Positions 1 to 15,120 of a stretch of 64,000 nucleotides of DNA are shown in pieces. Every line of letters starts with the position of its first letter. Positions within the stretch are counted from its first letter, which is position 1. The stretch spans positions 1-64,000 of the forward strand of contig WQZU01000001.1 in the NCBI GenBank assembly GCA_009780575.1, read 5' to 3'. The notes below the pieces were generated by a model that had not been told where the DNA came from, did no database searches, and saw nothing but the letters and a program-made list of their open reading frames with translations. This DNA is from Candidatus Methanomicula labiotermitis (GTDB taxonomy: Archaea; Thermoplasmatota; Thermoplasmata; Methanomassiliicoccales; Methanomethylophilaceae). The translations under genes were made by a program, and so were the position numbers.

Positions 1-1
1 A

Positions 2-295
2 TCAAGCAATGATTACGATTGTGAGATTGATAATCGGTATCATTACAGACTGGCCGCTGTCCTTCAGAACATTGAGGGAAGGGCGGCGATATCAGGTTAT
101 GACTCACCGCTATACGATACTCTATACTCAGGATGGATGCGTCACGTGGCGCCCATTAATTACTCATGCGAGACTCACGCGCCTCGCCAAGAAGTACTAT
201 GGACCAATTACGATCCTTCTTCAGGAAAGAAGGTAATACTAAAGCCTACGATTGTACAGCGAAAGATAACCGAGATAATCTATTCAGAGGAATAA
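2..295 (+). CDS. D12-class N6-adenine DNA methyltransferase, C-terminal part (cut by window start)
   Basis: An open frame enters from the left edge with no start and ends at TAA 293-295, so only the last 97 codons are visible. The segment GRAAISGYDSPLYDTLY followed by EVLWTNYD is the characteristic C-terminal block of Dam-like D12-class adenine methylases. The catalytic DPPY motif would lie outside the window. In mobile elements such orphan enzymes usually protect element DNA from restriction. The stop codon touches the ATG of the next gene, so the two are probably translated together. The family call is firm; the recognition sequence cannot be read. Confidence 0.85.
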   Translation, partial: SSNDYDCEIDNRYHYRLAAVLQNIEGRAAISGYDSPLYDTLYSGWMRHVAPINYSCETHAPRQEVLWTNYDPSSGKKVILKPTIVQRKITEIIYSEE

Positions 296-517
296 ATGAC
301 GATGAAAGCCGAACAAAAGAAAAGAGTATGTATCTCGTTCAAACTCGATAGCGAAGCGCTCTTACATCAGATCGCCGCGATCACCGGTTACAGAAAGTCA
401 GAGATAATAGATGCCTCGGTCCGTATGTTTTTCCAATCGCTAGGAATAAACGACGGTATGACTATCGCCGAAGTTAAAACCGTCTTAAACTCCTTTTTTC
501 AACAGGATATATATTAA
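296..517 (+). CDS. Ribbon-helix-helix (CopG/Arc-like) DNA-binding protein
   Basis: A 73-residue protein (71 if the second ATG at 302 is used). It has a basic N-terminus, a short strand around residues 10-18 (RVCISFKLD) and two helices, the layout of a ribbon-helix-helix repressor. It begins directly after the methylase stop and ends six bases before a perfect inverted repeat at 523-546. The adjacent repeat sits on the promoter of the large structural operon, so I infer that this protein binds it and controls that operon, probably as a dimer. No enzymatic motif is present. Confidence 0.65.
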   Translation: MTMKAEQKKRVCISFKLDSEALLHQIAAITGYRKSEIIDASVRMFFQSLGINDGMTIAEVKTVLNSFFQQDIY

Positions 518-546
518 ACTATCATTTTGTACATTTGTACAAAATG
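506..546 (+). promoter_or_regulatory. Promoter with perfect palindromic operator upstream of the structural operon
   Basis: An A/T-rich TATA-like box (gatatatattaaa, 506-518) lies upstream of CATTTTGTAC - ATTT - GTACAAAATG (523-546), a perfect 10-base inverted repeat. A transcript starting about 25 bases after the box would start inside the repeat, a typical repressor position in archaea. The gene directly upstream encodes a ribbon-helix-helix protein. The repeat could instead act as a hairpin in the RNA leader. Confidence 0.6.
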
Positions 547-581
547 TCAGATTATTAAGCTCCATATGTCATAACTTCGCA

Positions 582-2546
582 ATGATAACCAACTCAAAGC
601 AAAAAGCATTCTTCGCCGTATTCGCCGCCGTAATACTAACGGCGGCTGTGTTCGTACCGCACCTAGATAGCGACACAGATAGCGACATATCATTTTCACT
701 TGACACGATCGGAGCACAAACGCCGCCGCCGGGCGCGATCCCGATCTCCTCCGCCGCCGATCTCGCTATGATCGGATCCACGGGTGCCGCTGCGGGCGCA
801 TGGCCGATGAACGCTTACTACTACCTCACTCAAGACATCGTTATGTCGGGAGAATGGACACCTATAGGCTCATCAACTACTCCGTTCTCAGGAACGCTTG
901 ATGGACAAGGACACACAATATCAGGACTGACGATTAATGGCGGTGTTGGAGGACTTTTTGGTAACACGTCCGGAAGCACAGTTACTTCGATATTTCTTTC
1001 CATCGAGATGGTGGTTACCAATAACTCCGGAGGAGTAATATCTAGTGCTAATAATACTCACATTTCTCACACACACGTATATGGAACCATTTCGAATTCA
1101 CTTCTTATTTCTACTCATTCTGTTGGAGGCCTAGTAGGAATATCATCTAATGTCACAATCGAAAACTCTTCTTTCTCCGGGACCTTACACGCACAGAGGG
1201 TAGGAGGCGCGATAGGGAGTGCTAATCTTAGCTATTCTATTTCTGAGTTCAGCAATACGGGCAACATAAGCAACACCTATAACGGAGGCATTATCGGGGG
1301 CATTATAGGCCTCACTTCTAACGGATCCAGCGGCACCATATCTAAATCATCCAACCTGGGAAAAATTAATTCAGCATTATCTTCGGATGTGGGAGGAATA
1401 ATAGGGAGGGCGCTAGGGAACAATATACTAATTATCGACTCATTCAATCAAGGAGATATAACATCTGATGGCACCCGATTAGGAGCAAGCTCTAACTTAG
1501 GCGGAATTATAGGATCGGGCAATTCATCTAGCCCCATTATTGTAGATAGAGTCTTTAACGCAGGCTCGATCTCGTCAGACGGATTCGGAAACGCAGGCGG
1601 GCTTTTTGGAAATACAAGGGTAACGACAATAATAAACTCTTTCAACATAGGCCCGGTATCAACCGGTATAGAGGTAGCCTTAGCGGGAGGGCTGGTAGGT
1701 GATGCAGTGGAGCGCGTACATATTATTAACTCCTACAGTGCCGCGCCAATTACCGGGGCAAGTGGCGCAATCGCCGGACTTTTCGATACGACCTCATCTA
1801 TAGTCAACACGTTCGCGATAGCTGACAGTCTTTTCTACCCTGACGGAACTCATAGACCTGATAGAATAGCCGTCGCGGGTCTGCCTAATATAGACGGCAT
1901 AAGCAATCCTGGTAGGCTTCCGCATCAGGCATCAGGCATTTTCAGCATGGAGAGTATGACACCGTCATTGTCAGACGCACAGTACGGGAAATCCATATAC
2001 TTCACGGGGACCACTCACACCGATTATGGCATAATACCGGGATGGGATTTCGTTAGCATTTGGACTATTGACCCGGATATCAACGGCGGCCTTCCGGTAC
2101 TAAGGCATTCACTAGACATGCCGCCTGAACTTCCGTCTTTCTCGGTGCACACCGTGAATATATCCGCCTATCCCGGAGAAGAGATAATATTCGTACCTAT
2201 TCTCACGCATGGCGCGACGGTCACTGCCATCAACCTTCCGGTAGGGTTGTATTGGTATGATGGACTCTTGTTCGGACACGTCACTGCCTCAGGAGAGCAT
2301 ACCATAGTGCTTACTGCGCAGTGGATAATCGGAGGACTAACTGTATCAGATGTGCAAATAATAGTAATCTCGATATCCGACTCTCAAGACACGTCTAATC
2401 TAGCTTTCATTCTATTTCTCTTTGCTGGCGCTCTGATTATTATAGGATTCATTATAGCTATGAAGAATTTTAAACTCGGATTATGTATTGCGGGTGCCGG
2501 AATGGCACTCATATTAGCTATAATAGGAGGGATATCATATGAGTAA
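582..2546 (+). CDS. Large exported surface protein with GLUG-type repeats (element-encoded)
   Basis: 654 residues. An N-terminal signal/anchor segment (about residues 7-26) is followed by a long region of repeats of the form GGxxG...SxSxG, for example VGGLVGIS, GGIIGLTS, GGIIGRAL and GGLFGNTR. These resemble GLUG motifs of right-handed beta-helix adhesins. Around residue 510-605 lies an Ig-like segment, and two hydrophobic helices close the protein (about 607-652). It should stand outside the cell or virion, anchored by its C-terminus. It is the first gene of a tightly overlapping operon; its end overlaps the next ATG by 8 bases. The next protein has a matching N-terminal region, so the two look like a tandem duplication. 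Whether it is a virion spike or an adhesin is not decided by sequence. Confidence 0.75.
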   Translation: MITNSKQKAFFAVFAAVILTAAVFVPHLDSDTDSDISFSLDTIGAQTPPPGAIPISSAADLAMIGSTGAAAGAWPMNAYYYLTQDIVMSGEWTPIGSSTTPFSGTLDGQGHTISGLTINGGVGGLFGNTSGSTVTSIFLSIEMVVTNNSGGVISSANNTHISHTHVYGTISNSLLISTHSVGGLVGISSNVTIENSSFSGTLHAQRVGGAIGSANLSYSISEFSNTGNISNTYNGGIIGGIIGLTSNGSSGTISKSSNLGKINSALSSDVGGIIGRALGNNILIIDSFNQGDITSDGTRLGASSNLGGIIGSGNSSSPIIVDRVFNAGSISSDGFGNAGGLFGNTRVTTIINSFNIGPVSTGIEVALAGGLVGDAVERVHIINSYSAAPITGASGAIAGLFDTTSSIVNTFAIADSLFYPDGTHRPDRIAVAGLPNIDGISNPGRLPHQASGIFSMESMTPSLSDAQYGKSIYFTGTTHTDYGIIPGWDFVSIWTIDPDINGGLPVLRHSLDMPPELPSFSVHTVNISAYPGEEIIFVPILTHGATVTAINLPVGLYWYDGLLFGHVTASGEHTIVLTAQWIIGGLTVSDVQIIVISISDSQDTSNLAFILFLFAGALIIIGFIIAMKNFKLGLCIAGAGMALILAIIGGISYE

Positions 2547-5500
2547 AGCTTTGGCGATTTGTGCCGCGCTGATTATGTCAATCGCAGGACTAGCGACTGT
2601 AATAAGCGTTATTGACACGGACGGCGCGGAAAACGATATCACTATATCCGCGCCGCCCACTGGCGCAATACCAATAATAACGGCGGCTGACCTCGCACGG
2701 ATCGGATCGGGTCAGACTATAAGCGGCGTGACTTGGTCATTAGAAGCCTACTACTATCTTACGGGCAATATTACGCTGACAGGGGTTAATAATCACACGC
2801 CGATAGGCACGGAATCGAGACCATTTACAGGTACCCTGGACGGCAGAGGATACGCCATATCAGGGCTTAACATCTCAATGACGGTAAATAACGCAAGTGG
2901 TATGTACTTCGTGGGCCTCTTCGGACATCTTGGACCCGGAGGCACAATTACTAATCTGGGGATCGTCAATAGTACCCTATCTCTAACTATAAATTCCACT
3001 GTGGCAAGCACTACAGGGTACGTAGGAGGGCTCGTAGGATACGCAGATCAGGCGACAATAAGTAACTCGTACAACGATTCCGCTGTATCCTCATCTCAAC
3101 TTGCAACCTCCGGAGCCGTAACAATGCGCATAGGAGGCATTGTAGGACACGCTACCAATTCATCATCTATCAATAGCTTCAACACCGGCAGCATCCTGGG
3201 AGATAACCGAACGCCACTTGGGACGATCTCATCGACACTACACGTGGGCGGCATAGCCGGATCAATAAGAACGAGTGTTACCATCGCAGACAGCCACAAC
3301 ACAGGAGCGGTATCATCAATTAACGGCACGGCGGCGGGTATTGTGGCCACGGCTACAGAAAGCGGGACAGTTAATGACATGAGACACTCTTTGATAATAA
3401 ACACATACAACACCGGCGCAGTTACCACAACTAACAATAGAGCATCTACGGCATACGCTAGCGGGATAGTCCACTCGGGACATGTGCATATAATTAATTG
3501 CTTCAACGCAGGAACTGTAACCGTTAACAATTCCGGAGGAAGCTCTGTAGTGTCAGGCATAATTAATCTTCCTCGAGGGGTGTCTGAATTGGCTTCTACC
3601 GCAATAATTAATTGCTACAATAGAGGAACGGTACAGCAGTTCGGCGGTAGCGCCGGAAGTATGGTATCTGATATCGCGTCAGATGTGGTAATCGGACATA
3701 TATCATTCAAGGGAGCATATGGTATGAGTCTCCCGATACACACAATCCGAGGATCCGGAACCCTTACAATAGAGAGCGTAGGGATAGTTAATCCGGCAAC
3801 ACAGGCAATAACGGCAGCTAATGGAACAACACTATACGCTAATGCACTTCTTCCCGCCCTGGCGCAGGGGATCGCGATCAATAATCTTAATCAGGCTCTT
3901 CCGTGGAAGATCGTAAGCGGAACGAATGGAGGGATGCCTATACTTGACCCTCTGACAATTACCTCATCGCCAGCCAATCTATCTTTAATATCCGGGAGTG
4001 TGTGGACATATACACCCACGCTGAACGTATCCGGATCCACGCTATCAGTATCCGGAGTTCCGTGGCTTACTTTGTCAGGAGGAACGATAAGCGGTACTGT
4101 ACCGGCTCCTACTGCTGGAACATCTCAGAACTTCGAAGTTACTTTAATCGCGACAAGAGGTTTTTCCGCCGCAACGCAGACATTCACAATATCAGCTTTT
4201 TCTTCGGCATTCCCTGCTAATACTGATAGCGTCTATGTCCATTACCTGGACGGTTTCACGTACACTACCGGGGCACCGGCCGGATCCGTCATATCTGCGC
4301 AATGGACGAACCCCAATATTTCGCAAGACTTAACAATTAATCAAACTAACCGCACGATATCAATAGCTACGATGGAGCTAGTATCCGGAACCTACGAACT
4401 AAGTATAACGGCATCGCAGGCGGGCCGGCCCTCTTCTGTAATGAGCCTTTTTATTCACGTCTACCCGCATGAGATCCGTAACCTTGACCCTTTCGGATTG
4501 TCTTTTTGGTCTTACACCGTCAGCACCAACAACCCGGCGGATACGATGAGCATTATCAGAGTAACAAATACGGTTGGAGGAGTCACAAATACCGTAACCG
4601 GTGCTACCATAGACCCCATAACTAGAACTGTAAACTTCAACTTCACGCAACCCGGGCTTTACGAGTTCGCTTTAAAGCTTACAGGGCCGACGGGAAATAA
4701 CAATACTCTCGTCCTTAGACTATGGGTTACAACTGATGTCATATCGGGCACACCATCAATCAATGGAATAACTGTTATCAGCAACGGGTCAGGAAACTTT
4801 GATTTCGTTCTGCAGACTCCTATCAATTTTGCGATCATAATATGGGATTTCGGAGATGGAACTACAGAGCAGAACCAAAACACTACCCGCAACTACACAT
4901 ACCTGATCGGAGGGATATTTACAGTATCCGCAACTCTGGTTAACAGCTTCGGCGCGGAAGCGTCAGCGTCCGCGACAGTGGATAATCTTATCCCGTCAAT
5001 GCCAGAAACTGCCTACCGGAACCAAGAATATGTCGCGATAGTTCCCGTGGCCGCAACCGCATCATATCAGATCACAGTAGAGGGTCCGACATGGATAACC
5101 TGGGAGTTCATACCCGGGGGATCCATAAACTATGTGCGGATAGTCGGAACTTTTTCTGATATCAACCTAGTAGGCAACGTAATAACAATGACCGTATCCA
5201 CTAACGGCGCTACAGATCAGTCATGGACGGTTCTTTTACGCCCTGCTAATACAGACTACTTATCGCCGGCGTTCCTACTCGAAAGGGTCGGATACACTGA
5301 GGTACGGATTATGTATAGCGGCTCTTGGGATGCCGCTACGATACTCACAGTTCAATGGACGGCCGGAGGGAGTCATTCCATACTTCCTAGAAACGTCTGG
5401 GTTTATCAGGAGTACGAATCCAACGGTACAATGACTATAACGGTCACAGCAACCCGCCTCGGAATCCAGGTAACAACATCGCAGACAGTGAGCATTACAG

Positions 5501-5925
5501 GCGTTTTAGTGCCCGCTTTCGTACTCGAAAAAGTTAGCGATACCGAAGTACGGATAATGTACACTGGTACACAAAACTGGGAATCTCTCACAGTCCAATG
5601 GACGCAATCGGGCGATCATATAACGTACGCTCCGAGTCCGACCGGATGGATGTATCACGAATACACCGAGAACGGGGAGCACATACTCACGCTGACGGTA
5701 TCGAGAGGGACGACCATAGCGCAAGTGTCGCAAACGATTGAGATATCAGGCGTTACAAGCGGCCAAGAGACCTACGAATCCGGGAACTTCTCTTCCGTCT
5801 TTTTCGCCTTTGCTTTGGCACTAGTTATCGTGGCAATAATCGCGGCAGGCGGCGGCAGATATGATATTACAATATTTTCTGTACTTTGTGGATCCATTTC
5901 CGCATTTCTAGGAGTGATATTATGA
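2539..5925 (+). CDS. Giant exported surface protein: GLUG-type repeats, PKD and Ig-like domains
   Basis: 1128 residues, the largest product here. It has a signal peptide (about 1-30), then a GLUG-repeat region paralogous to the preceding protein; both share an AIPI..AADLA.IGS entry and a GTLDG.G..ISGL block. A putative Ig-like region follows, then a PKD domain near residue 767 (WDFGDGT motif), two consecutive near-identical domains at about residues 910-1072, and C-terminal hydrophobic helices. Such architecture is typical of archaeal cell-surface and viral attachment proteins. The TGA overlaps the next ATG (ATGA), so the operon is translationally coupled. No catalytic motif is seen; a binding function is inference. 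Confidence 0.75.
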   Translation: MSKALAICAALIMSIAGLATVISVIDTDGAENDITISAPPTGAIPIITAADLARIGSGQTISGVTWSLEAYYYLTGNITLTGVNNHTPIGTESRPFTGTLDGRGYAISGLNISMTVNNASGMYFVGLFGHLGPGGTITNLGIVNSTLSLTINSTVASTTGYVGGLVGYADQATISNSYNDSAVSSSQLATSGAVTMRIGGIVGHATNSSSINSFNTGSILGDNRTPLGTISSTLHVGGIAGSIRTSVTIADSHNTGAVSSINGTAAGIVATATESGTVNDMRHSLIINTYNTGAVTTTNNRASTAYASGIVHSGHVHIINCFNAGTVTVNNSGGSSVVSGIINLPRGVSELASTAIINCYNRGTVQQFGGSAGSMVSDIASDVVIGHISFKGAYGMSLPIHTIRGSGTLTIESVGIVNPATQAITAANGTTLYANALLPALAQGIAINNLNQALPWKIVSGTNGGMPILDPLTITSSPANLSLISGSVWTYTPTLNVSGSTLSVSGVPWLTLSGGTISGTVPAPTAGTSQNFEVTLIATRGFSAATQTFTISAFSSAFPANTDSVYVHYLDGFTYTTGAPAGSVISAQWTNPNISQDLTINQTNRTISIATMELVSGTYELSITASQAGRPSSVMSLFIHVYPHEIRNLDPFGLSFWSYTVSTNNPADTMSIIRVTNTVGGVTNTVTGATIDPITRTVNFNFTQPGLYEFALKLTGPTGNNNTLVLRLWVTTDVISGTPSINGITVISNGSGNFDFVLQTPINFAIIIWDFGDGTTEQNQNTTRNYTYLIGGIFTVSATLVNSFGAEASASATVDNLIPSMPETAYRNQEYVAIVPVAATASYQITVEGPTWITWEFIPGGSINYVRIVGTFSDINLVGNVITMTVSTNGATDQSWTVLLRPANTDYLSPAFLLERVGYTEVRIMYSGSWDAATILTVQWTAGGSHSILPRNVWVYQEYESNGTMTITVTATRLGIQVTTSQTVSITGVLVPAFVLEKVSDTEVRIMYTGTQNWESLTVQWTQSGDHITYAPSPTGWMYHEYTENGEHILTLTVSRGTTIAQVSQTIEISGVTSGQETYESGNFSSVFFAFALALVIVAIIAAGGGRYDITIFSVLCGSISAFLGVIL
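5266..5754 (+). repeat. Tandem duplication of an ~81-residue beta-rich domain
   Basis: Two direct repeats lie back to back inside the giant surface protein (5266-5511 and 5512-5754). Each opens PAF.LE+V...TEVRIMY, carries LTVQWT in the middle and closes with a T.S.T..I.GV strand. They are related at both DNA and protein level, which points to duplication within the gene. Confidence 0.8.
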
Positions 5926-8027
5926 AAAATAAGAAGAAGACAGCGGCCACGGTGCTGATAGCGTCAATTATGGTGCTAGCCGGCACCGCGTCGCTTTTTG
6001 GTATACACAGCGAAAAAATGGAAGATGTAGGCATAGGCGATCCAGGCAACCTTACAGAGGCAGAGTTCGAATACTTACTGTCTGCTATTGAGCCTCATAT
6101 ACTCAATCAAATGAGAGTAGATCCCGCTTTTATTGGGATAGAGCCTGCAATGAAGCCGATTGTAGTACTCTTAGTCGCTACGCTGGCCATTTTTTCGGCA
6201 GGTGTGGTTTTTGGGTATATTCTTGCCGGGCCGTCGGCAGGAGGATCGGCAGGCAGTCAGCAGGAAGAAATTAATGCGGTACTCAGACAAGCCGAAGCCC
6301 AAAAGATAGCATGGTATGGAGACGGAGCCGTTTCACTTGCCGCTTCCATACTCCCAAGCAACTCGACGCTTTGGGGATTCTCGCAAGCGCACTGGAATCG
6401 AGCTATAGAACTCGCCGTAGGTCAGCTTTGGACCTACGGACAAAAATATGATCCTAACCTGGCCGTTGATGCGTCATTTATGCGTCTTAACATGGAAAAT
6501 TTAGTATATAATTGGCAAGCGGCCTTAGACAATGCGATGCGCTCAATGATCGATGTAATCAATCAATTCAATGACTTTCCACATCTATCACAAATGACGG
6601 CCCAACTCGTATGGGATACCGGAAACGCCGAACTTAGGAACTCGGTTATGGATTTTGCAACTCTGGTTACCGGCGGATCAGCCGGTCAGACCGTCTATAT
6701 TGACGCTCAGATATACACGGAAGGCGGAACATACAATCAGATAACGTCAGGAACGTTGCATAATCTGACGAACAGCAACATAATTTTGAGGGATATATGG
6801 ACAGGGAGCAGTACAACCGCAGGGCTTACGGTCGTACTCCTCCCTGGGCCTAACGATATGTCGCAACTTACGTACACCGGCACACAGACGCAAATAAGAT
6901 CGGGTCTTTATCAGATAGAGACGAACAATTCTACTTTCGCGGGGCCGCTATCTATGGCCGCTGATATTAATGCAGCGGAGGTCCAAGGAACGCTAATCCA
7001 CAGATCGACATCCTATACATGGTTCACATCGGACGGAATTAGCACATTCTCTAACGTACCGGGACAGCTTCCCACGTTAACACATAACCTATCTTTGAAC
7101 TTAGGGTACGTTGACCGATATGGAAACAATGCTATGGAGTCCACGATAGTGGTAGGTACGGGAACCGACTCAGGACAGAACCCAGACCTTATAGCGGCAT
7201 GGAGCGGACTAATAGATAGAATGAATCAGACTGTAGTGATCACTGCCAGATCCGGAGAAGTAATGTGGCAGATATTCGACGTGACCCAGGAATCCGTTCC
7301 GTGGCTTTCGCCATCATCAATGATAACCAATATTCCCGGCGTGTATATGACGGCACAGCAGGCGCACATGCTGGCGTTACAGCAAATGGTCCAGATTGCC
7401 AGAATATACGAAATGTTCGGCGATGCTCTTTTCGATGGACTTAATATGGTCTGGAATCCGCAATCTCTTGATACATTCATCCGAGGGGACATCTATCAGG
7501 ACAACATCCTGATGTATCAGGATATCGCATTTACTCCTTTCTCGATGCTGAGAGAACAGACATTTACCGTGGGCGGTATGACATCATGGTATGGACCCGG
7601 TTTTGTTCAGATATGGGGTACCGGAGAAATCGATGATTGGTATGGTCCTACGCCGGCATCACAATTCCAAACTGCCTGGTTACAGGATGGATTTACCATC
7701 CACGTCACACAGATAAGAGCAGGCGGCGAAATGGTAGATAGCATAACTCTCACGCCCGAAGTACTAAAGAGGTACACCGTAGACACAGGAACGCCGCCAG
7801 GGCCAATTGTGCCGCCGATAATAATAGAATCGGCATCGGATATGGTGCCTATAATCATCATAATGGTAAGCTTGCTAATTCTAGGATACGCCATCGGCAG
7901 AGGCAACACGCCGGCGGCTCTGATCGGGCTAGCTCTACTCGGCTTAGGGCTACTAATACTGTACATAGATGACATAATATCGTGGTTCCGCAGCTTACTG
8001 CCTTGGTGGATGGGAGGGCCTAGATGA
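5922..8027 (+). CDS. Large membrane-anchored ectodomain protein (candidate spike)
   Basis: 701 residues from the ATG that overlaps the previous stop (ATGA). A signal-like helix (residues about 6-27) is followed by a second hydrophobic segment near 85-110, a long extracellular domain without cysteine-rich motifs, and two C-terminal hydrophobic stretches (about 637-655 and 660-685) ending WWMGGPR. I do not recognise a named family. The position just before a small multi-helix membrane protein and upstream of an ATPase parallels the spike gene in pleomorphic haloarchaeal viruses; that parallel is inference from order and topology only. Confidence 0.65.
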   Translation: MKNKKKTAATVLIASIMVLAGTASLFGIHSEKMEDVGIGDPGNLTEAEFEYLLSAIEPHILNQMRVDPAFIGIEPAMKPIVVLLVATLAIFSAGVVFGYILAGPSAGGSAGSQQEEINAVLRQAEAQKIAWYGDGAVSLAASILPSNSTLWGFSQAHWNRAIELAVGQLWTYGQKYDPNLAVDASFMRLNMENLVYNWQAALDNAMRSMIDVINQFNDFPHLSQMTAQLVWDTGNAELRNSVMDFATLVTGGSAGQTVYIDAQIYTEGGTYNQITSGTLHNLTNSNIILRDIWTGSSTTAGLTVVLLPGPNDMSQLTYTGTQTQIRSGLYQIETNNSTFAGPLSMAADINAAEVQGTLIHRSTSYTWFTSDGISTFSNVPGQLPTLTHNLSLNLGYVDRYGNNAMESTIVVGTGTDSGQNPDLIAAWSGLIDRMNQTVVITARSGEVMWQIFDVTQESVPWLSPSSMITNIPGVYMTAQQAHMLALQQMVQIARIYEMFGDALFDGLNMVWNPQSLDTFIRGDIYQDNILMYQDIAFTPFSMLREQTFTVGGMTSWYGPGFVQIWGTGEIDDWYGPTPASQFQTAWLQDGFTIHVTQIRAGGEMVDSITLTPEVLKRYTVDTGTPPGPIVPPIIIESASDMVPIIIIMVSLLILGYAIGRGNTPAALIGLALLGLGLLILYIDDIISWFRSLLPWWMGGPR

Positions 8028-8353
8028 TAATAATCATGACGGCCATTCCTCTGATCGCTTTCTTCGGGATGGTAGCAGGCTTCTTTTTCCATAAGTTTGC
8101 CGGTGTGTACCTGTCCGTAGTCGTGCTGGTGGCGACGGTTATTCTTGGGGCCGTTTCCATATCGGTCATACGGCCGCTCAGTAGCGACATGTCCTCGTTC
8201 GCCGCCGCAGTATCCAATTTCATGGTAGCGGCCTATATCGGCGGCATGGCATACGGAGCGTATGGGGCGCACCATAAAAATTTCGAAAGAATTGCTGTTG
8301 CTTTCGCTTTAGTGCTAACGGTAGTGCTTGCCTCTGCCGCGATAGGAGGATGA
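8024..8353 (+). CDS. Small four-helix integral membrane protein
   Basis: 109 residues, almost entirely hydrophobic, with about four membrane helices (residues 3-22, 28-48, 60-78, 88-107) and short polar loops. It starts inside the stop of the preceding gene (ATGA). Size, topology and position match small internal membrane proteins of pleolipovirus-like elements (VP3-like), but there is no sequence motif that proves this. It could equally be an accessory subunit holding the large ectodomain proteins in the membrane. Confidence 0.6.
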   Translation: MIIIMTAIPLIAFFGMVAGFFFHKFAGVYLSVVVLVATVILGAVSISVIRPLSSDMSSFAAAVSNFMVAAYIGGMAYGAYGAHHKNFERIAVAFALVLTVVLASAAIGG

Positions 8354-8357
8354 TGCG

Positions 8358-9236
8358 ATGATTGAATTAAGTCAGCTCATAGGGGCCGGAATCGCTATCA
8401 CAGCGACCTATATAGGCGTAAGAGTGCGACGCGTGACTAACATGTTAGTTCCTATAGAGTTTGTTACGGCAAGTATTATTACCGCCTTCATAGTGTTGGG
8501 GATCATCATCGGGCTAGATCCTGCCGGATACATTGCTTTCTTCAGCGGCTACACTTTTGGGTATTTGATTGACGGATTCCTTAAGTATATAATCGTGAGA
8601 AAAAGAGATCCGAAAAATAAACTTTCTCAGGGTACACCATGGGTAATATATGACGTGGATGGGCGTAAGGCATTCGCGATCCAGAATAACAAAGCATTAT
8701 TCGAACGTCTATTTTTCAAAAACCACGTTTTCATCCTGTCTAAAACACCGTTCGGAGATGCAGATTGGTATGAGCCTACAAAGTACCCTCTTTTCCCGGC
8801 ATTTAAAAGAAAGATGATGATGGTAGATAGTTATGCAGCTGTTCCGGTTAAATGGAGCTCAGACTACAACAAAAAGAAAGTACGTCAGAGATACGCCATG
8901 ATCGTTAAAAAAGCTCATGGATCAATGGTTTCAATGGATCAGCTGTGCTTCGAGGCTGACGCAGTGAATAAAGCGAACGAATCTGCGGCAGAGGCCCATA
9001 AAAAATACATTGACCTGCTACACTTCATTAACACCGGACTTCCCATGTTTATAGCCAACTTCATAGCGGATGCCTTTTCCCAGTCGCCGCAAATGCAATT
9101 TGCTGAGGTCACTCGCCGATCTGAAGATATGGCCAAAAAGGAGGAAGACAACGCAATAACTATACTTACAGAGCAAGAGAAAGAGTTAATTTTTTCTGCA
9201 AAGGAGGAAAAAGATAATGTTCAGAAAGAAGAGTAA
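8358..9236 (+). CDS. Membrane-anchored protein with large cytoplasmic domain
   Basis: 292 residues. Two or three N-terminal hydrophobic helices (about 7-22, 34-56, 58-72) are followed by a basic, mostly hydrophilic domain ending in a Glu/Lys-rich tail. It follows the small membrane protein by four bases and overlaps the next gene by 20 bases. No known family is recognised. The placement within the structural operon suggests a role in assembly or membrane remodelling. Confidence 0.6.
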   Translation: MIELSQLIGAGIAITATYIGVRVRRVTNMLVPIEFVTASIITAFIVLGIIIGLDPAGYIAFFSGYTFGYLIDGFLKYIIVRKRDPKNKLSQGTPWVIYDVDGRKAFAIQNNKALFERLFFKNHVFILSKTPFGDADWYEPTKYPLFPAFKRKMMMVDSYAAVPVKWSSDYNKKKVRQRYAMIVKKAHGSMVSMDQLCFEADAVNKANESAAEAHKKYIDLLHFINTGLPMFIANFIADAFSQSPQMQFAEVTRRSEDMAKKEEDNAITILTEQEKELIFSAKEEKDNVQKEE

Positions 9237-9780
9237 AGAAGCGGGCGGCCGAAGATCGTTTGAGATAGATCACGCGATATCAGTGGGTAAAAAAGTATGG
9301 AGGGACCAGCTCAATCTCATGCAAGTGATTGGAGACCTTCCTACCATTCTAGACAATGACGTCCGTGAGCTTGATGAGATAATTCAATCTTTCAAGGATA
9401 ATGGAGGTCAAATACGCTTCAATGATGAAACATTGACCTGGACTTGCTCATACAGAAAAGTCAACGTTAAGATCGTTTTTGATCACACCCACAAAAAGAA
9501 ATTTTCATCCTTTACCGATGAAAACGCCGGTAAAACGCCAAAAGAAGTGATAAAAACAATTGGTGCTGTGATATCGGCACACCATGAGATTTCTAAGCGT
9601 CTTTTCGCTCGCAGGCTCATAAAAGAAATGATAAGCTATTTCGAAGACGCGGCTGCCAAGGACAGCATCGAGGAAATAATAGAGGATTTCAAAGATAATG
9701 CCGAGGTAAAATTCAATGCGATCAATGGAAATCATAGAATTTTTGACATCAATATAGAAGATTTATTGAGAGGGAGATAA
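9217..9780 (+). CDS. Soluble protein of unknown function in the structural operon
   Basis: 187 residues, charged, no signal peptide or membrane helix. A strong Shine-Dalgarno (ggagg) lies about ten bases before the ATG, inside the 3' end of the preceding gene. The final TAA shares its last A with the ATG of the ATPase gene, so the two products are likely made together and may act together. No recognisable motif. Confidence 0.6.
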   Translation: MFRKKSKEAGGRRSFEIDHAISVGKKVWRDQLNLMQVIGDLPTILDNDVRELDEIIQSFKDNGGQIRFNDETLTWTCSYRKVNVKIVFDHTHKKKFSSFTDENAGKTPKEVIKTIGAVISAHHEISKRLFARRLIKEMISYFEDAAAKDSIEEIIEDFKDNAEVKFNAINGNHRIFDINIEDLLRGR

Positions 9781-10748
9781 TGAAAGCGTATCCTCTCCTA
9801 ACTCTCAATACGCCAACCTATCTTCTCACAACAGAGGCCCTTAGGCCGCCCGATGAAGAGCCGTACGACATCACATCCATGGCGAATAGTCGCTTTTTCA
9901 GGTCGATCCCGGCGCGATCAGTAGAGCATAGGCACCTTTGCATCGTAGGCAAGATGGGAAGCGGCAAAACCACGACAAAGAACTTCTTGGCCTCTTATGC
10001 GCTCGACAGATACGGCGGCGTAGATAATGTTAACATCGTATACACCGACGATCCGCGTGTAGCTATTGAGCTCATCGATGATAGACCTGTACAGCTGCTC
10101 ATAATCGACGATGCCACATCTTACGCCTCATCTCGAGAGATCCATAAGCAGGCTCAGTTCTTGAAGGATTTCAACCGGACCCGACATGCATACATGAACC
10201 GATTTCCAGGGAGATCTGCCCTTATACTACACATATTCGGTTGGCAAAGATGGATCGAACTGGATCCCGGACTGAGAGACGGACATCTAATAATATTCAA
10301 AACCGGGATGACCGGACGCAATGATGTTCGAAATATTGAGGACATTATAGGACCCAAGTACTTCGATGTACTATTCCGGATATGGGATGCAATAGACCAA
10401 GGAAATGATAACGCCAAATCCATCTCAGTGGCGCGCATATCCTCGCGCCAGCCCGAAGAGGGCGGCGCAGGAATCTACATTACAGAGGAAGTGCCCTGGG
10501 TTCTTCCTGACCTCTTGCCTTCAGAAAAATATTTCGCCGCCGACAGGCAGACGGAAGACGAGATCCTATACAAGTACAGGTCAGATCCGAAATGGGCCCT
10601 CCGCATAGAGTGCTACGATCTGGACATAACAAACGACCATACGCAGACTGAGATCGCCGATATTCTGTCCGATCGCCACGGTAAGACCATCAGACAAGGG
10701 TATGTGTCTGAAGCGATCTCAAAAGTTAAGGAGCTGCTGAAGAAATGA
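9780..10748 (+). CDS. P-loop ATPase of the mobile element (packaging/assembly type candidate)
   Basis: 322 residues. Walker A is GKMGSGKT at residues 57-64 and Walker B is LLIIDD at 106-111. A middle region rich in aromatic residues follows, then a C-terminal segment (about 260-320) that could be a helix-turn-helix (QTEIADILSDRHGKTIRQG). It is the last gene of the operon. Element-encoded ATPases beside membrane protein genes commonly drive genome packaging, DNA transfer or virion assembly. It lacks signatures that would place it firmly in the FtsK/HerA or AAA+ groups, so the exact role stays open. Confidence 0.7.
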   Translation: MKAYPLLTLNTPTYLLTTEALRPPDEEPYDITSMANSRFFRSIPARSVEHRHLCIVGKMGSGKTTTKNFLASYALDRYGGVDNVNIVYTDDPRVAIELIDDRPVQLLIIDDATSYASSREIHKQAQFLKDFNRTRHAYMNRFPGRSALILHIFGWQRWIELDPGLRDGHLIIFKTGMTGRNDVRNIEDIIGPKYFDVLFRIWDAIDQGNDNAKSISVARISSRQPEEGGAGIYITEEVPWVLPDLLPSEKYFAADRQTEDEILYKYRSDPKWALRIECYDLDITNDHTQTEIADILSDRHGKTIRQGYVSEAISKVKELLKK

Positions 10749-10895
10749 GATTATCGCGATTATCGGGCAGAGGTCATCTACGCGCCCGCATCATGCGCGC
10801 GCGTGTGTTGCGCCGTTCGATACTATCGGCGGAATATCGGCGATTATCTGCCGCCGTCGGCGCGATCAAAAACGAAAACCAACACTCATTCTGGA
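10749..10895. other. GC-rich intergenic stretch between ATPase gene and small basic gene
   Basis: 147 bases with clustered gcgc/cgcg steps (for example around 10779-10803) and gcgat repeats, unlike the A/T-rich spacers elsewhere in the element. An open frame reaches back to 10803 but its composition looks non-coding. Could hold a hairpin or terminator; nothing firm. Confidence 0.3.
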
Positions 10896-11054
10896 ATGAA
10901 AAATAAGCTAAAAGGAGGTGGAAAAATAGTCAGAGAAGAAGTAATCTACAAGCGGGACGGAAAGACCGTTGAGCACTTGATACGCAACGGTAATTCGAAC
11001 CCGAGGATCAAATCGCCCGCAAAAGCAAAGGGCAAAGGTAAGAGGAAAAAGTGA
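10896..11054 (+). CDS. Small basic protein with Lys/Ala/Pro tail
   Basis: 52 residues from ATG 10896. The C-terminus (KSPAKAKGKGKRKK) resembles the basic tails of nucleic-acid-binding proteins. A very strong Shine-Dalgarno (aaaggaggtgg, 10911-10921) lies inside the frame, just ahead of an in-frame ATA at 10926, so the real product may start there with about 42 residues. The function may be DNA or RNA condensation, inferred from charge alone. Confidence 0.45.
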   Translation: MKNKLKGGGKIVREEVIYKRDGKTVEHLIRNGNSNPRIKSPAKAKGKGKRKK

Positions 11055-11140
11055 CTCACACCGCACAGACGAGGACTAGGAGTTTGCGGTAATCTCCCAA
11101 AGCAAAACCGCACACTAAAGTAACGCATAAGAGGTGTCAA

Positions 11141-11791
11141 ATGGCGAAAAGGAAGATAGCGGACAACACGATAACAATAATCGTTGACGAGATAGGCGAC
11201 CCTGGGTTAGACACGCCGGACGATCCAGATTTTGTAATGACTGCATCCGTCGTTATACAACCGATCCAGTTTAGTAACATATCTGCAAAATATCGCAAAC
11301 TATGGAAGAAATCGGAACTCAAGTCGAGATATTCCACACCGGAAGAAAGAGATATAGTTATCTCGGATGCGTCAGAGCTTGATCCGAAATCCAACGCCGT
11401 TTTCATCAGAAAGACATCGGGAGATAACCCGAAATGGTGGAGAGAATCAAAGAATCGGGATACTGCATATAGGGAAACGCTTTCCGAACTTATGGATGAT
11501 ACATTCGGTTCGACGGCAGACGACGGGTTTATTGTAGTCTTAGATAGGCATAAAGCCATTACCGGCGGTCACGGCGAGCGGATTGTAGAGGAGTCGGCTA
11601 AGGTCAAGAACAAGAAGGTCAAAAAATGTTATGTCGAAGATTCGGCGGCCGGAGAACGCCGCGACATCCTCCAAACCAACGACTTCATACCGAGGGAAGC
11701 CAGAGAGATCATACGTGGTGAAAAAGAAACCTCCAAACTGAACATCAACATACGGCGCATCACATCAAAGAACGTCAGAATTAAAAAGTAA
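11141..11791 (+). CDS. DUF3800-family protein
   Basis: 216 residues. The N-terminal IIVDEIGDPG resembles the DESGD entry motif of DUF3800, the middle has VVLDRHKAI, and the C-terminal ILQTNDFIPREAREI matches the conserved LQ-x-ADFI segment. DUF3800 proteins have an RNase H-like fold and are common in mobile elements and defence islands, with unknown activity. GAGGTG precedes the ATG by six bases. The gene stands alone between a small basic gene and a leftward operon. It is shorter than many family members; the same frame stays open for 50 codons beyond the TAA. Confidence 0.7.
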   Translation: MAKRKIADNTITIIVDEIGDPGLDTPDDPDFVMTASVVIQPIQFSNISAKYRKLWKKSELKSRYSTPEERDIVISDASELDPKSNAVFIRKTSGDNPKWWRESKNRDTAYRETLSELMDDTFGSTADDGFIVVLDRHKAITGGHGERIVEESAKVKNKKVKKCYVEDSAAGERRDILQTNDFIPREAREIIRGEKETSKLNINIRRITSKNVRIKK

Positions 11792-11970
11792 TGTTGCCCG
11801 CGAGGTCATGTTATCACAACTAACACGGGGCTTACACATACGATAGTAGAATCTTCGAAATATAAAAAGATACTGCAAAACTTGAGCGTGTACCCTATCT
11901 TCGACACCCTTGAGAAAACTATCAGAACATCGGAGATATAAAAACATTTCAATATTTTTATAATGGGAAA

Positions 11971-12537
11971 TCATTTTTTCCGTTTAAAATCCTCCGCGCC
12001 GTAAACGACACCTAGATGTTTCACACCGTATTTCTTATAGTCCGTTTCCCACTTTATAGTTTCATAACGCACCCGTTCTGAACCGCATCCGACGCAGAAC
12101 GGAGGATCGTCAAACGTATATATTCTTCGGCATTTTTCACAAACCTTTGTAGGTCTTTCTCCGACGATAATAGATCGTTCCAACCGTACTTCGTATTCGC
12201 CACCCATTAACCCGATCTCCAGGACTGGTATGTTGTCCTTAGAAATGTACCCGACAACATATAATTCATCGTGCCCATGACATTCGACAACGGCATATAT
12301 ACCCGATTGTGCAGGAACAAATACATAATCGCTGTCGTTGTTGTTCTCAAAAATATCAAACAATTCAGGCGCGCCGAACTCATTCATTACCAGCACTGAA
12401 TGAACGCATGTACTCCCGGAGAATCCTGGGAATCTCATTTGTTTTTTATCCTTCAATGAGTTACTATGAAGCGCAAACGCTTGTACCTTCAGATATTTAA
12501 CATAAAAAAGTTGAGGTCTTTCCTGCTTTTTGCTCAT
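11971..12537 (-). CDS. Zinc-ribbon protein of unknown function
   Basis: 188 residues with a CEKC...CVGC zinc ribbon at about residues 133-153 and otherwise beta-rich sequence. It is the last gene of a three-gene leftward operon with a winged-helix regulator; its start overlaps the preceding gene by four bases. No membrane helix. Its function is not recognised; the zinc ribbon suggests contact with nucleic acid or protein. Confidence 0.6.
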   Translation of the reverse strand: MSKKQERPQLFYVKYLKVQAFALHSNSLKDKKQMRFPGFSGSTCVHSVLVMNEFGAPELFDIFENNNDSDYVFVPAQSGIYAVVECHGHDELYVVGYISKDNIPVLEIGLMGGEYEVRLERSIIVGERPTKVCEKCRRIYTFDDPPFCVGCGSERVRYETIKWETDYKKYGVKHLGVVYGAEDFKRKK

Positions 12538-12830
12538 CGTTTCCTCTCCGTAGCGTTCTCTTCCTTTTCCCTTTTTTTCCGTTCCCTTTCGAGGATGCTG
12601 TTTATTCTACAATCCAAAAATGCGTTCACATCCGGCTGAATTTTCTCTTTGCATATCCAATCAGGCGTGATCCCTCCGAACCGCCGAACCTTCACATAAT
12701 CTTTGATGTACGAAACGAGTTCGGCCACACACTTTTCATAACCGTAACAATGACAATAATGATTCAATATAATCTGGGCGAGTTTGGTATTAAGGTTTGT
12801 CCATTCATCGGCAACAGGAACATCGCCCAT
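12534..12830 (-). CDS. Hypothetical protein, middle gene of regulator operon
   Basis: 98 residues, helical, several Cys (HCHCYGYEKC near the N-terminus) and a highly charged Lys/Glu/Arg tail. It lies two bases from the winged-helix gene and overlaps the zinc-ribbon gene, so all three are co-transcribed. No family recognised. Confidence 0.55.
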   Translation of the reverse strand: MGDVPVADEWTNLNTKLAQIILNHYCHCYGYEKCVAELVSYIKDYVKVRRFGGITPDWICKEKIQPDVNAFLDCRINSILERERKKREKEENATERKR

Positions 12831-12832
12831 AT

Positions 12833-13150
12833 TCAGCCTACCTTATTCCCTTGCTCCGAAGGTGCGCCGTGATTTATTGGCATCTTTCCTTCTCCGCGCT
12901 CTATGTCTAACCATTTTTCCATGAATATTTTACCCTTATCAGTTATGTAATATGTCTTAACCGTTCGACCGATCGAACTTTTAACTTCTTGTATGTACCC
13001 TGCTTCTACGAATTCTTTTAACCGTTTTATTCTAGAGTTTTTACCCTCTCCGTCTGTTAACTCTTGTTGGTTAATTCCAGAGTTATAGTATACTCCTTTC
13101 AAAACCTTAATCGAATTGATCCGAGATATTAAATCCTCTATGTTATCCAC
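12833..13150 (-). CDS. Winged-helix DNA-binding protein
   Basis: 105 residues, GTG start. The pattern of helices followed by GYIQEV...GRTVKTYYITDKGKIF is the wing of a winged helix-turn-helix (MarR/ArsR-like). It is first in a leftward operon; its start overlaps a set of three related half-sites at 13149-13239, the expected place for autoregulation. It probably sets the switch between the leftward operon and rightward transcription toward the integrase. Confidence 0.7.
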   Translation of the reverse strand: MDNIEDLISRINSIKVLKGVYYNSGINQQELTDGEGKNSRIKRLKEFVEAGYIQEVKSSIGRTVKTYYITDKGKIFMEKWLDIERGEGKMPINHGAPSEQGNKVG

Positions 13151-13239
13151 AAAATGTTATTGGTAATTCTTCATTTATCTTTACTTACCCAATAATGTTT
13201 TCGGGAAAGGACTTAAATAGAACCCAAAACCATTATCGG
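13149..13239. promoter_or_regulatory. Divergent control region with three related half-sites
   Basis: Three copies of a motif close to CCAATAAtgTTTTsG occur: inverted at 13149-13164, direct at 13188-13205 and inverted at 13223-13239. The last two flank a TATA-like box (ttaaata, 13213-13219). The adjacent winged-helix gene is the natural binder. The TATA box is placed to start rightward transcription near 13243. Confidence 0.5.
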
Positions 13240-13242
13240 TTA

Positions 13243-13327
13243 ACGTGGGAAAAGCAGCCAAGGGGAATATAGGTCAAAAACTGAAATGGGAAATGAGGGT
13301 TCAAATCCGCGAACAATCTCCCCACGT
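13243..13327 (+). ncRNA. Possible tRNA-like small RNA
   Basis: ACGTGGG (13243-13249) pairs perfectly with CCCACGT (13321-13327), a seven-base terminal stem. Next to it, GAGGG-TTCAAAT-CC (13295-13308) plus CTC (13318-13320) gives a perfect T-arm once nine bases (13309-13317) are left out. A TATA-like box lies about 27 bases upstream of 13243. I could not fold convincing D and anticodon arms, so this is at best tRNA-like or a decayed tRNA. Confidence 0.35.
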
Positions 13328-13385
13328 ATTCTGTTCGTACCCTCCATCCCTCCTATTCTCTTAAGGATACAGGAAACGTGGAAAC

Positions 13386-13637
13386 ATGAATAAAAAAACA
13401 ATGTTAATGTGGAAAATACTAACGAGTGCGATATACGAATATGCTATCTGCGATAATGCAAATTTAATTGATGTAATTATTAACTTGATGCAAAAAGAGC
13501 TACAATTTTACCCTTCTGATTCTGAAATGTATAGGGACATAATGCATATGAAGCCTTTCCTCATGGAAGAAATTGCGCGTGAGAGCTATGGAATTTTGAT
13601 AAGCTGTGCGCTTTTCGACACATCGGATGTGATTTAA
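13386..13637 (+). CDS. Small hypothetical protein
   Basis: 83 residues, helical and mildly acidic, with no signal peptide or recognised motif. Its stop overlaps the ATG of the next small gene (taATG), which supports it being translated. It lies between the regulator region and the integrase. Confidence 0.45.
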   Translation: MNKKTMLMWKILTSAIYEYAICDNANLIDVIINLMQKELQFYPSDSEMYRDIMHMKPFLMEEIARESYGILISCALFDTSDVI

Positions 13638-13792
13638 TGATCGCATGGTTCTGTCAGTCCTGCCCTCGCCAGAAGGATGAGTCATGCCGCGGTATGGATT
13701 GGGACGACCGGCCGCATATCGATTACGTGTGCGGGAATCACCCGGCGCACATAAGCGGACGACTCGCAGAGCTTCCAGGAATTCTTCTTTGA
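13637..13792 (+). CDS. Very small cysteine-containing protein
   Basis: 51 residues starting inside the preceding stop codon. Cysteines at positions 6, 9, 17 and 32 with a nearby His could bind one zinc ion. After the stop, a neighbouring frame reads DSQSFQEFFFDWKSDAREYY up to 13834 and looks protein-like, so a frameshift may have shortened a longer gene. Confidence 0.4.
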   Translation: MIAWFCQSCPRQKDESCRGMDWDDRPHIDYVCGNHPAHISGRLAELPGILL

Positions 13793-13847
13793 CTGGAAAT
13801 CCGATGCCAGGGAGTACTACCAATCAGCGATATAACACGAGTAATGC

Positions 13848-14801
13848 ATGACACCCAACGCTGAAGGCCGGTACCCATTCCGCCACGCCGCCAACGAGTA
13901 CCTACGTGCTCACTACGGACTGCTCGCCACATCTACGTACGACGAGCGAGTCCGTAGATTCAGCCGTATGGCCAAGGATTTTGAGGCTTTACGTAAAGCT
14001 GACAAGGTCACTACCATGGATCCGGCCCAGCTAACAGCCGAGGATGTCAAGGAGTATTTTCTGATGCTCAAAGGCCGAGGGCTTTCCGCTAAGGGTCTTT
14101 CACACAATATCAGTGCGTTAAAAGTTCTATGTTTTTATCACGGCAACGCGGCTGTGGACGTATGCCGCGCCAAATATCCGATCATAAAAACCCGATTGCC
14201 GACGCATAGACTGCCTACCACTCCGCTTACGATCTTATCTGAGATTCTCGACAAGGGAAACGAATGCCAATCGTATGAGAGGATTAGAAACTACTCGGTG
14301 GTAGTCTGCGCATACTGCGCCGGTATGCGACCGGTCGAGATCCAACATGCCCGGATAGAGAACCTTAACACATCGGACGGTGTGATCTACATTGATGTTG
14401 TTAAAGGTCAAGGATCTTATGGAGAGCCTAGATACATTCCGATCCATCCCGAAGGTATCGAGATCCTTAAAAAATACGTCCATCTCAGAAATATAAAATT
14501 CGGATCCAAAGGATACCTTTTCACATCCGCCGGCCGTCGCTATTTTTCTACAAACGCCCTTAGATTTTTTAAGACACGGGTAGAAAATGAGGTATCACAC
14601 AAATTCGATTTCCGGGAGGGCCGCAGAACTTTCGGCCAGATGCTCATTGATGAGGGTGTTTCGGTCGAAGATGTGGCCGTTATAATGGGTCACCGGACCA
14701 GCCGGACCACAGAAAAATATTACGCTCGAAGAACGCAGAAATCTGCTATGTCAAACATTTTAAAACTATGGGAAAAAAGGAGAAATGAAAAAAATGAATA
14801 G
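13848..14801 (+). CDS. int: Tyrosine recombinase / integrase of the element
   Basis: 317 residues. The N-terminal part (about 10-115) is a SAM-like core-binding domain; the rest is the catalytic domain. Visible catalytic residues are R161 (GMRPVEI), K186 (VKGQGS), R259 (GRRTF), H282 (MGHRT) and Y291 (EKYYARR). The usual His of the HxxR motif is Arg here (R256), a change tolerated in several archaeal integrases. The gene ends 48 bases from the 3' end of tRNA-Leu, so it marks one end of an element inserted in that tRNA. It should catalyse insertion and excision. Confidence 0.9.
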   Translation: MTPNAEGRYPFRHAANEYLRAHYGLLATSTYDERVRRFSRMAKDFEALRKADKVTTMDPAQLTAEDVKEYFLMLKGRGLSAKGLSHNISALKVLCFYHGNAAVDVCRAKYPIIKTRLPTHRLPTTPLTILSEILDKGNECQSYERIRNYSVVVCAYCAGMRPVEIQHARIENLNTSDGVIYIDVVKGQGSYGEPRYIPIHPEGIEILKKYVHLRNIKFGSKGYLFTSAGRRYFSTNALRFFKTRVENEVSHKFDFREGRRTFGQMLIDEGVSVEDVAVIMGHRTSRTTEKYYARRTQKSAMSNILKLWEKRRNEKNE

Positions 14802-14845
14802 AAATGAGTTGAAAACCAAAAACCGATTAATTGGATCGAAGCGGT

Positions 14846-14890
14846 TGGTGCGGGGGGAGGGATTCGAACCCACGAACTCCTGTGAGACAG
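14846..14890. other. Predicted attachment site (3' part of tRNA-Leu)
   Basis: The integrase gene lies directly against the 3' half of tRNA-Leu, the usual target of archaeal tyrosine integrases. The core repeat should be part of the T-arm/acceptor segment. The second copy is expected left of the window, so the exact limits cannot be seen. Confidence 0.5.
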
Positions 14891-14949
14891 AATTTCTTCC
14901 TCTGCGGAGTCTTAAGTCCTGCGCCTTTGGCCAACTCGGCTACCCCCGC
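14849..14949 (-). tRNA. tRNA-Leu(TAA) with a short intron
   Basis: The minus strand folds with acceptor GCGGGGG/CCCCCGC, a TTCGAAT T-loop and a long variable arm (TCTCACAGGAGTTC), as in class II tRNA-Leu. The loop CTTAAGA gives anticodon TAA. The stem CAGGA pairs with TTCTG only if about 17 bases after the anticodon are removed, an intron at the canonical archaeal site between positions 37 and 38. A CCA follows at 14846-14848. It is the likely insertion site of the neighbouring element. Confidence 0.92.
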
Positions 14950-15010
14950 GTATGGTTATCCGGAGTCTGCGCATCATTTTAAAACCTCGCATCATTCAGC
15001 GAAGCTGTGA

Positions 15011-15118
15011 TCAATCCTTTATACGTTGTTTTCTTCCGAGCATGATCATTATGATGAAACAGGAAATCCCTGCTGCCAGGCATATGTAGCCGAATTCAAT
15101 GGTCGATACGTCTATCAT
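15011..15118 (-). CDS. 35-residue single-helix membrane protein in ABC exporter operon
   Basis: ATG at 15118 follows the permease stop by two bases and has aaggag just upstream. The product is one hydrophobic helix (residues about 9-27) with a short basic tail (GRKQRIKD). It is probably an accessory subunit of the exporter. Small size alone limits certainty. Confidence 0.55.
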   Translation of the reverse strand: MIDVSTIEFGYICLAAGISCFIIMIMLGRKQRIKD

Positions 15119-15120
15119 GT

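Follow-up and report, generated by a model that had tools for sequence, protein, structure and literature searches.

The left end of the window (the whole stretch analysed here, 64,000 nucleotides at positions 1 to 64,000 of the forward strand of contig WQZU01000001.1, assembly GCA_009780575.1, Candidatus Methanomicula labiotermitis) is occupied by an integrative element that runs from position 1 to approximately 14,850. The first base of the window is the first base of the contig, so that the element is cut on the left by the contig start, inside a methyltransferase gene. At its right end lies a tyrosine integrase gene, which faces, across 48 nt, the 3' end of a tRNA-Leu(UAA) gene with an intron; this tRNA 3' end is presumed to be both the integration target and the right attachment site. 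Rfam recognises the tRNA with 45.3 bits (14849-14949, minus strand); ARAGORN in its default mode misses it and reads a 17-nt intron when introns are allowed. The G+C content of the element is mostly 0.42-0.49, compared to mostly 0.46-0.55 in the chromosome to its right.

The main part of the element is a tight forward operon (582-10748) of intact genes for proteins of 654, 1128, 701, 109, 292, 187 and 322 aa, in which several junctions overlap by 4-8 nt and ribosome-binding-like motifs precede most starts (Table 1). Before the operon, the methyltransferase fragment (1..295) finds no match in Pfam, and the product of the next small gene (296..517) weakly resembles that of a small ORF found in the corresponding place of a related element, G044. 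After it, the winged-helix regulator has homologues in the related elements G036, G035 and G044. The initial annotation had described an integrated element with these genes at a tRNA-Leu, and the genes are indeed present and intact, with integrase and tRNA identified by Pfam, PHROG and Rfam.

Table 1. Features of the integrative element and, in the last row, additional genes detected in related loci
Feature	Position	Strand	Evidence
Phage-type DNA methyltransferase, C-terminal end, cut by contig start	1..295	+	PHROG 1996 E 3.5e-13; PHROG 56 E 1.7e-12
Small protein, probable ribbon-helix-helix regulator	296..517	+	PHROG 876 transcriptional repressor, weak, E 0.017
Surface protein 1 (654 aa) with a signal segment, an ectodomain of GLUG-type repeats and membrane segments at the C-terminus	582..2546	+	
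Surface protein 2 (1128 aa) with a GLUG-type part at the N-terminus, a PKD/Ig-like stalk and an anchor at the C-terminus	2539..5925	+	
Predicted VP4-like membrane-fusion protein, 701 aa	5922..8027	+	AlphaFold2 model, BFVD, PDB alignments, C-terminal profile match
Membrane protein of 109 aa, small and multi-span; VP3-like candidate	8024..8353	+	Hydropathy, position; homologue in C15 element
Pleolipovirus ORF6-like protein of 292 aa with membrane segments at the N-terminus and a cytoplasmic domain	8358..9236	+	Profile, gene order
Soluble 187-aa protein in the ORF6-to-ATPase gap	9217..9780	+	Positional equivalent of the pleolipovirus gene there
P-loop NTPase, 322 aa, C-terminal HTH-like helices	9780..10748	+	Profile match to pleolipovirus NTPases
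Accessory protein, 216 aa	11141..11791	+	Weak homologues in G117, G066 and G056 elements
Zinc-ribbon protein, 188 aa	11971..12537	-	DZR_2 E 0.0025, under cut-off; homologue in C15 element
Small accessory protein, 98 aa	12534..12830	-	ORF only; no convincing family (Pfam, PHROG)
Winged-helix regulator, 105 aa	12833..13150	-	PHROG 11046 transcriptional regulator, 1.2e-6
Tyrosine integrase, 317 aa	13848..14801	+	Pfam Phage_integrase 1.3e-19; PHROG 1, 4.1e-31
tRNA-Leu(UAA), 17-nt intron	14849..14952	-	Rfam tRNA; ARAGORN with introns allowed
Second genes found by the fusogen profile in related loci	L080:3501-5360 and 9675-11663; L026:5825-6778; L023:282-1085; L084:4539-5216		Iterated fusogen profile

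The 701-residue protein and the NTPase

Sequence searches alone gave no named relative for the 701-aa protein, and a profile search of the PDB returned chance-like matches only. Its AlphaFold2 model, made from an alignment of 14 relatives, is of moderate quality (pLDDT 64, pTM 0.53). Among the predicted viral structures of BFVD, the sole match of this model at E <= 0.001 was VP4 of Halorubrum pleomorphic virus 11 (HRPV-11; 3.6e-7, probability 1.00, 549 columns). When the model was re-aligned with VIA to 992 PDB chains, ranks 1-3 were taken by VP5 spikes of HRPV-2 and HRPV-6 (6qgi, Z 7.0; 6j7v, Z 6.8; 6qgl, Z 6.6), the alignments comprising 268-289 residues within positions 116-611 of the protein compared to about 60 helical residues in most other high rows. 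A Z of 7 falls inside the warning range of the tool and the global TM-scores are low (0.18/0.23), and the VP5 spikes were absent from the top 50 of a plain Foldseek search of the PDB. The large rmsd (17-21 Å) would fit a V-shaped molecule whose two halves stand at a different angle. At the C-terminal end a weak, colinear profile match to VP4 was obtained; here an FTP(Y/F) stretch, the glycine that follows and a G-x-aromatic-T/S motif pair with LFTDW of VP4 and its followers. Predicted fold and C-terminal profile match together support the 701-aa protein as a VP4-type fusogen. In some relatives the iterated fusogen profile also finds a second gene (Table 1), possibly a divergent spike or one with shared repeat modules.

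In an all-against-all profile control (6 x 12), families of these elements were compared with families of Pleolipoviridae and Thalassapleoviridae, and like-with-like pairs alone stood out, the best unlike pair being at 0.0043. The fusogen paired with VP4 at 3.1e-4, the Rep of relatives with alphapleolipovirus Rep at 1.8e-4, and the ORF6-like protein with ORF6 of Archaeoglobi viruses (thalassapleovirus) at 7.9e-5 in the enlarged set, a pairing that was weak or unsupported with the smaller set. For the NTPase, hhalign gave E-values of 1.3e-6 against the haloarchaeal NTPases and 3.6e-6 against those of Archaeoglobi viruses, which is about as strong as the match between these two groups themselves, and the profile match to pleolipovirus NTPases exceeds that to the packaging NTPases B204 and SH1.

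The succession of fusogen, ORF6-like and NTPase genes agrees with that of the pleolipovirus core, which consists of VP3, VP4, two hypothetical genes and an ATPase (PMC10599561). The 109-aa membrane protein has no profile match to VP3 and sits downstream of the fusogen rather than upstream, its label of VP3-like candidate being taken only from size and membrane segments. Likewise, the 187-aa protein has no profile match to the pleolipovirus gene between ORF6 and NTPase; weak homologues of it occur at the same place in the G110 and G009 elements. The initial annotation had read the locus as pleolipovirus-like, and the comparison of the 701-aa protein and the ATPase with pleolipovirus proteins agrees with this through the predicted VP4/VP5 fold, the NTPase profile match and a gene order weighed against the all-against-all control. 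Of the proposed spike - VP3-like - ATPase core, the spike and the ATPase hold by predicted fold or by profile, and the VP3-like member is left without profile support.

Compared with solved structures, the AlphaFold2 model of the ATPase (pLDDT 86) is nearest to the packaging NTPase B204 of STIV2 (Z 12.8), ahead of HerA, FtsK, VirB4 and TcpA (Z ~10), and the protein is therefore predicted to be an FtsK-HerA type motor. The STIV B204 and A32-like packaging NTPases resemble it in the ATPase core fold but belong to icosahedral or large DNA viruses, and no capsid gene was recognised in the element. As no pleolipovirus NTPase is named among the best 50 BFVD matches to the model, the link of the ATPase to the pleolipoviruses rests on profiles and gene order. 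With HerA, FtsK, TcpA and VirB4 in the same fold group, and with adhesin-like surface proteins that could serve mating contact, the locus might also be read as an integrative plasmid, conjugative or mobilisable, with surface proteins that would mediate cell-cell contact and an ATPase that would drive DNA transfer. We consider this extremely improbable, since the 701-aa protein matches viral fusogens, the relatives carry a phage-type rolling-circle Rep and conjugation genes, which the initial annotation had named as evidence against a virus, were not recognised: the proteins scanned from G044, from G110 and from the element itself, the left part of which is missing, gave no relaxase, VirB4, TraG or pilus gene.

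Related loci and the left end of the element

At least 27 related loci were found in Methanomassiliicoccales, one of them being a second and divergent element in the genome studied here. A search of 147 genomes of the order gave the ATPase in 15, and one of 389 genomes of the phylum gave the fusogen in 18; these counts come from searches seeded with this element and describe this lineage rather than all such viruses. In many independent loci of the host order the genes for fusogen, ORF6-like protein and ATPase follow one another in the same succession, a recurrence far beyond chance. Relatives with named hosts belong to Methanomassiliicoccales, several being from rumen or gut. No close relatives were found among phage records or IMG/VR contigs, and tblastn with fusogen and ATPase against 50,697 phage records (AvPV1 included) gave no match at E 0.01.

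Two relatives are flanked by direct repeats, in G044 of 176 nt including the 3' end of a tRNA-Pro (17.5 kb apart) and in G110 of 18 nt including the 3' end of a tRNA-Tyr (17.8 kb apart), and both have a rolling-circle Rep (PF23343; E 5.1e-8 in G110) and an exonuclease-like gene. Rolling-circle initiators of ~640 aa, with PF23343 near the C-terminal end, are encoded at L024:1541-3457 and L020:3949-5898 in att-bounded relatives. The G056 element shows the same arrangement as the window, with a tRNA-Leu beside an integrase 39% identical to the one described here. In the genome under study, the second element lies on contig C15 (L019, G000:C15:1-20000, at 202-15622). Its fusogen is 54% identical, and its own integrase (L019:14627-15622), beside which no tRNA was found, is followed by apparently chromosomal genes. 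The presence of two divergent elements in one genome suggests double lysogeny.

The initial annotation had proposed a search to the left for the other attachment repeat and a replication gene, and neither turned up in the window or elsewhere in the assembly. Because the contig starts inside the element, the left attachment repeat is not found; a Rep of the PF23343 family was found nowhere in the 95%-complete assembly, from which the left end of the element is missing, and no D12 methyltransferase gene was found in its remainder. The element's left end, replication gene and left attachment repeat are absent from the assembly. These absences would fit a decaying provirus remnant that has kept its morphogenesis genes intact but has lost replication and is no longer mobile. 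We judge this unlikely, as the genes that are present all have open frames and a good organisation and as the window contig ends inside the methyltransferase gene while the C15 contig likewise starts just upstream of the surface genes; that both contigs break at the left part of the element points to an assembly gap rather than to decay.

The gene upstream of the fusogen

Surface protein 1 gives a GLUG match at E 0.0069, under the Pfam cut-off, and has a homologue in the C15 element (41% identical). Its repeat ectodomain is also found in host proteins at G000:C8:21373-23424 (-) and G000:C16:7475-8548 (+), in open frames of 3070 and 782 aa, respectively, so that virus and host adhesins may share modules. 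Surface protein 2 (PKD_4, E 5.8e-9) is the partner gene directly upstream of the fusogen gene, with which it has a 4-nt overlap; its C-terminal ~580 aa are 48% identical to the C15 partner, so that the two elements of this genome keep the stalk and differ by replacement of the N-terminal part. By simple hydropathy and ORF rules, which make the count approximate, 24 of 26 elements have an anchored ectodomain gene immediately before the fusogen gene, in many of them with a 4-nt overlap. Among 48 upstream surface proteins, Pfam detected Listeria-Bacteroides repeats (27), PKD (12), Ig (10), BspA-type LRR (3) and sialic-acid-esterase (1) domains, and in most close pairs partner divergence tracks fusogen divergence. 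In the G110 element, a sialic-acid-specific acetylesterase domain is part of the surface protein encoded at L024:4051-5055, before the fusogen gene.

Two other identities were rejected for the partner, a second VP4 copy and a homologue of AvPV1 gp05 (the extra spike), no relatedness to either being detectable. We infer that the partner is an attachment protein paired with the fusogen. A tentative extension, which we regard as possible rather than probable, is that the pleomorphic viruses of Methanomassiliicoccales form a family-level lineage of their own with a two-gene entry machine, made up of a large, modular, membrane-anchored attachment protein and a VP4-type fusogen. The attachment protein would bear PKD/Ig, Listeria-Bacteroides or LRR-type repeats, and its gene would immediately precede, and often overlap, the fusogen gene. 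In haloarchaeal pleolipoviruses a single protein combines attachment and fusion; here the two tasks would be split between two co-evolving proteins.

Placement and proposed life cycle

Baquero et al. 2024 (PMC10919331) refer to Medvedeva et al. 2023 for the detection of VP4-like proviruses in Methanomassiliicoccales, and place these proviruses in a VP4 tree. The remark in the initial annotation that no such virus was familiar from this kind of methanogen therefore does not stand, and given these prior reports the element is a member of an already known virus kind. As described, the published proviruses are alike in host order, VP4-like fusogen and proviral state, and the text consulted of PMC10919331 makes no mention of the upstream partner gene. 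A 2025 taxonomy summary lists the related methanogen viruses as currently unclassified (PMC12451623). The VP4-like proviruses of Methanomassiliicoccales are thus still without a family inside Trapavirae.

The element has Trapavirae-type features, namely a predicted VP4-type fusogen, an ORF6-like protein before the NTPase and an NTPase downstream of the fusogen. It resembles Thalassapleoviridae (AvPV1 and relatives, of Archaeoglobi) in the order of fusogen, ORF6-like and NTPase genes, in the tyrosine integrase and with regard to their 13-18 kb genomes, and AvPV1 in particular in a proviral att site at a tRNA and an extra spike-like gene upstream of VP4; unlike the element, these viruses have VP3 upstream of VP4 and another host phylum. 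With Pleolipoviridae (HRPV, HGPV-1, His2, SNJ2) it shares the V-shaped VP4/VP5 fusogen fold, as predicted, the NTPase profile match and the integrase of temperate members, and its relatives share the rolling-circle Rep of alphapleolipoviruses, but its fusogen is larger, its surface genes are large and adhesin-like and its host is not haloarchaeal. Tblastn found no relatedness of the core proteins to haloarchaeal members, whose host order differs, nor to AvPV1 and its relatives, the hosts here being Methanomassiliicoccales and not Archaeoglobi. By sequence, the element thus falls outside both named families.

Gene content, the arrangement of tRNA and integrase, the predicted VP4-type fold, the NTPase profile link and the recurrence of the module were computed here, and the locus very probably represents the greater part of a dormant provirus. 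It would belong to an enveloped and presumably non-lytic pleomorphic virus, integrated at tRNA-Leu(UAA) in a Methanomassiliicoccales methanogen and distantly related to Pleolipoviridae and Thalassapleoviridae (kingdom Trapavirae). In its proposed life cycle, the tyrosine integrase would insert the viral genome at the 3' end of tRNA-Leu(UAA), and the excised circular genome would replicate, probably via a rolling-circle Rep as in the att-flanked relatives. Budding from the membrane would yield virions that bear both the VP4-like fusogen and its large upstream partner; the partner would bind the host surface and the fusogen would merge the envelope with the cell membrane, while the ORF6-like protein and the NTPase may act in assembly or genome packaging.

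Envelope proteins, fusogen and NTPase without a recognised capsid gene would fit equally well a plasmid that spreads in membrane vesicles, its membrane proteins loading and fusing the vesicles with no true virion, and such a carrier and a pleomorphic virion would be mechanistically close. However, the same core makes infectious particles in Pleolipoviridae, and a conserved fusogen implies selection for entry. AvPV1 also makes virus particles with this core (PMC10919331). We consequently hold the vesicle plasmid to be very unlikely and retain the provirus of a pleomorphic virus.

As such, the element enlarges the little-studied group of viruses of rumen and gut methanogens, whose Methanomassiliicoccales hosts are relevant to methane and trimethylamine metabolism, by a new, well-supported member together with a series of related loci. 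Its less expected feature is the gene for a membrane-anchored, repeat-rich ectodomain directly upstream of the fusogen, and the recurrence of this partner gene offers a concrete hypothesis on how these viruses may recognise their hosts.
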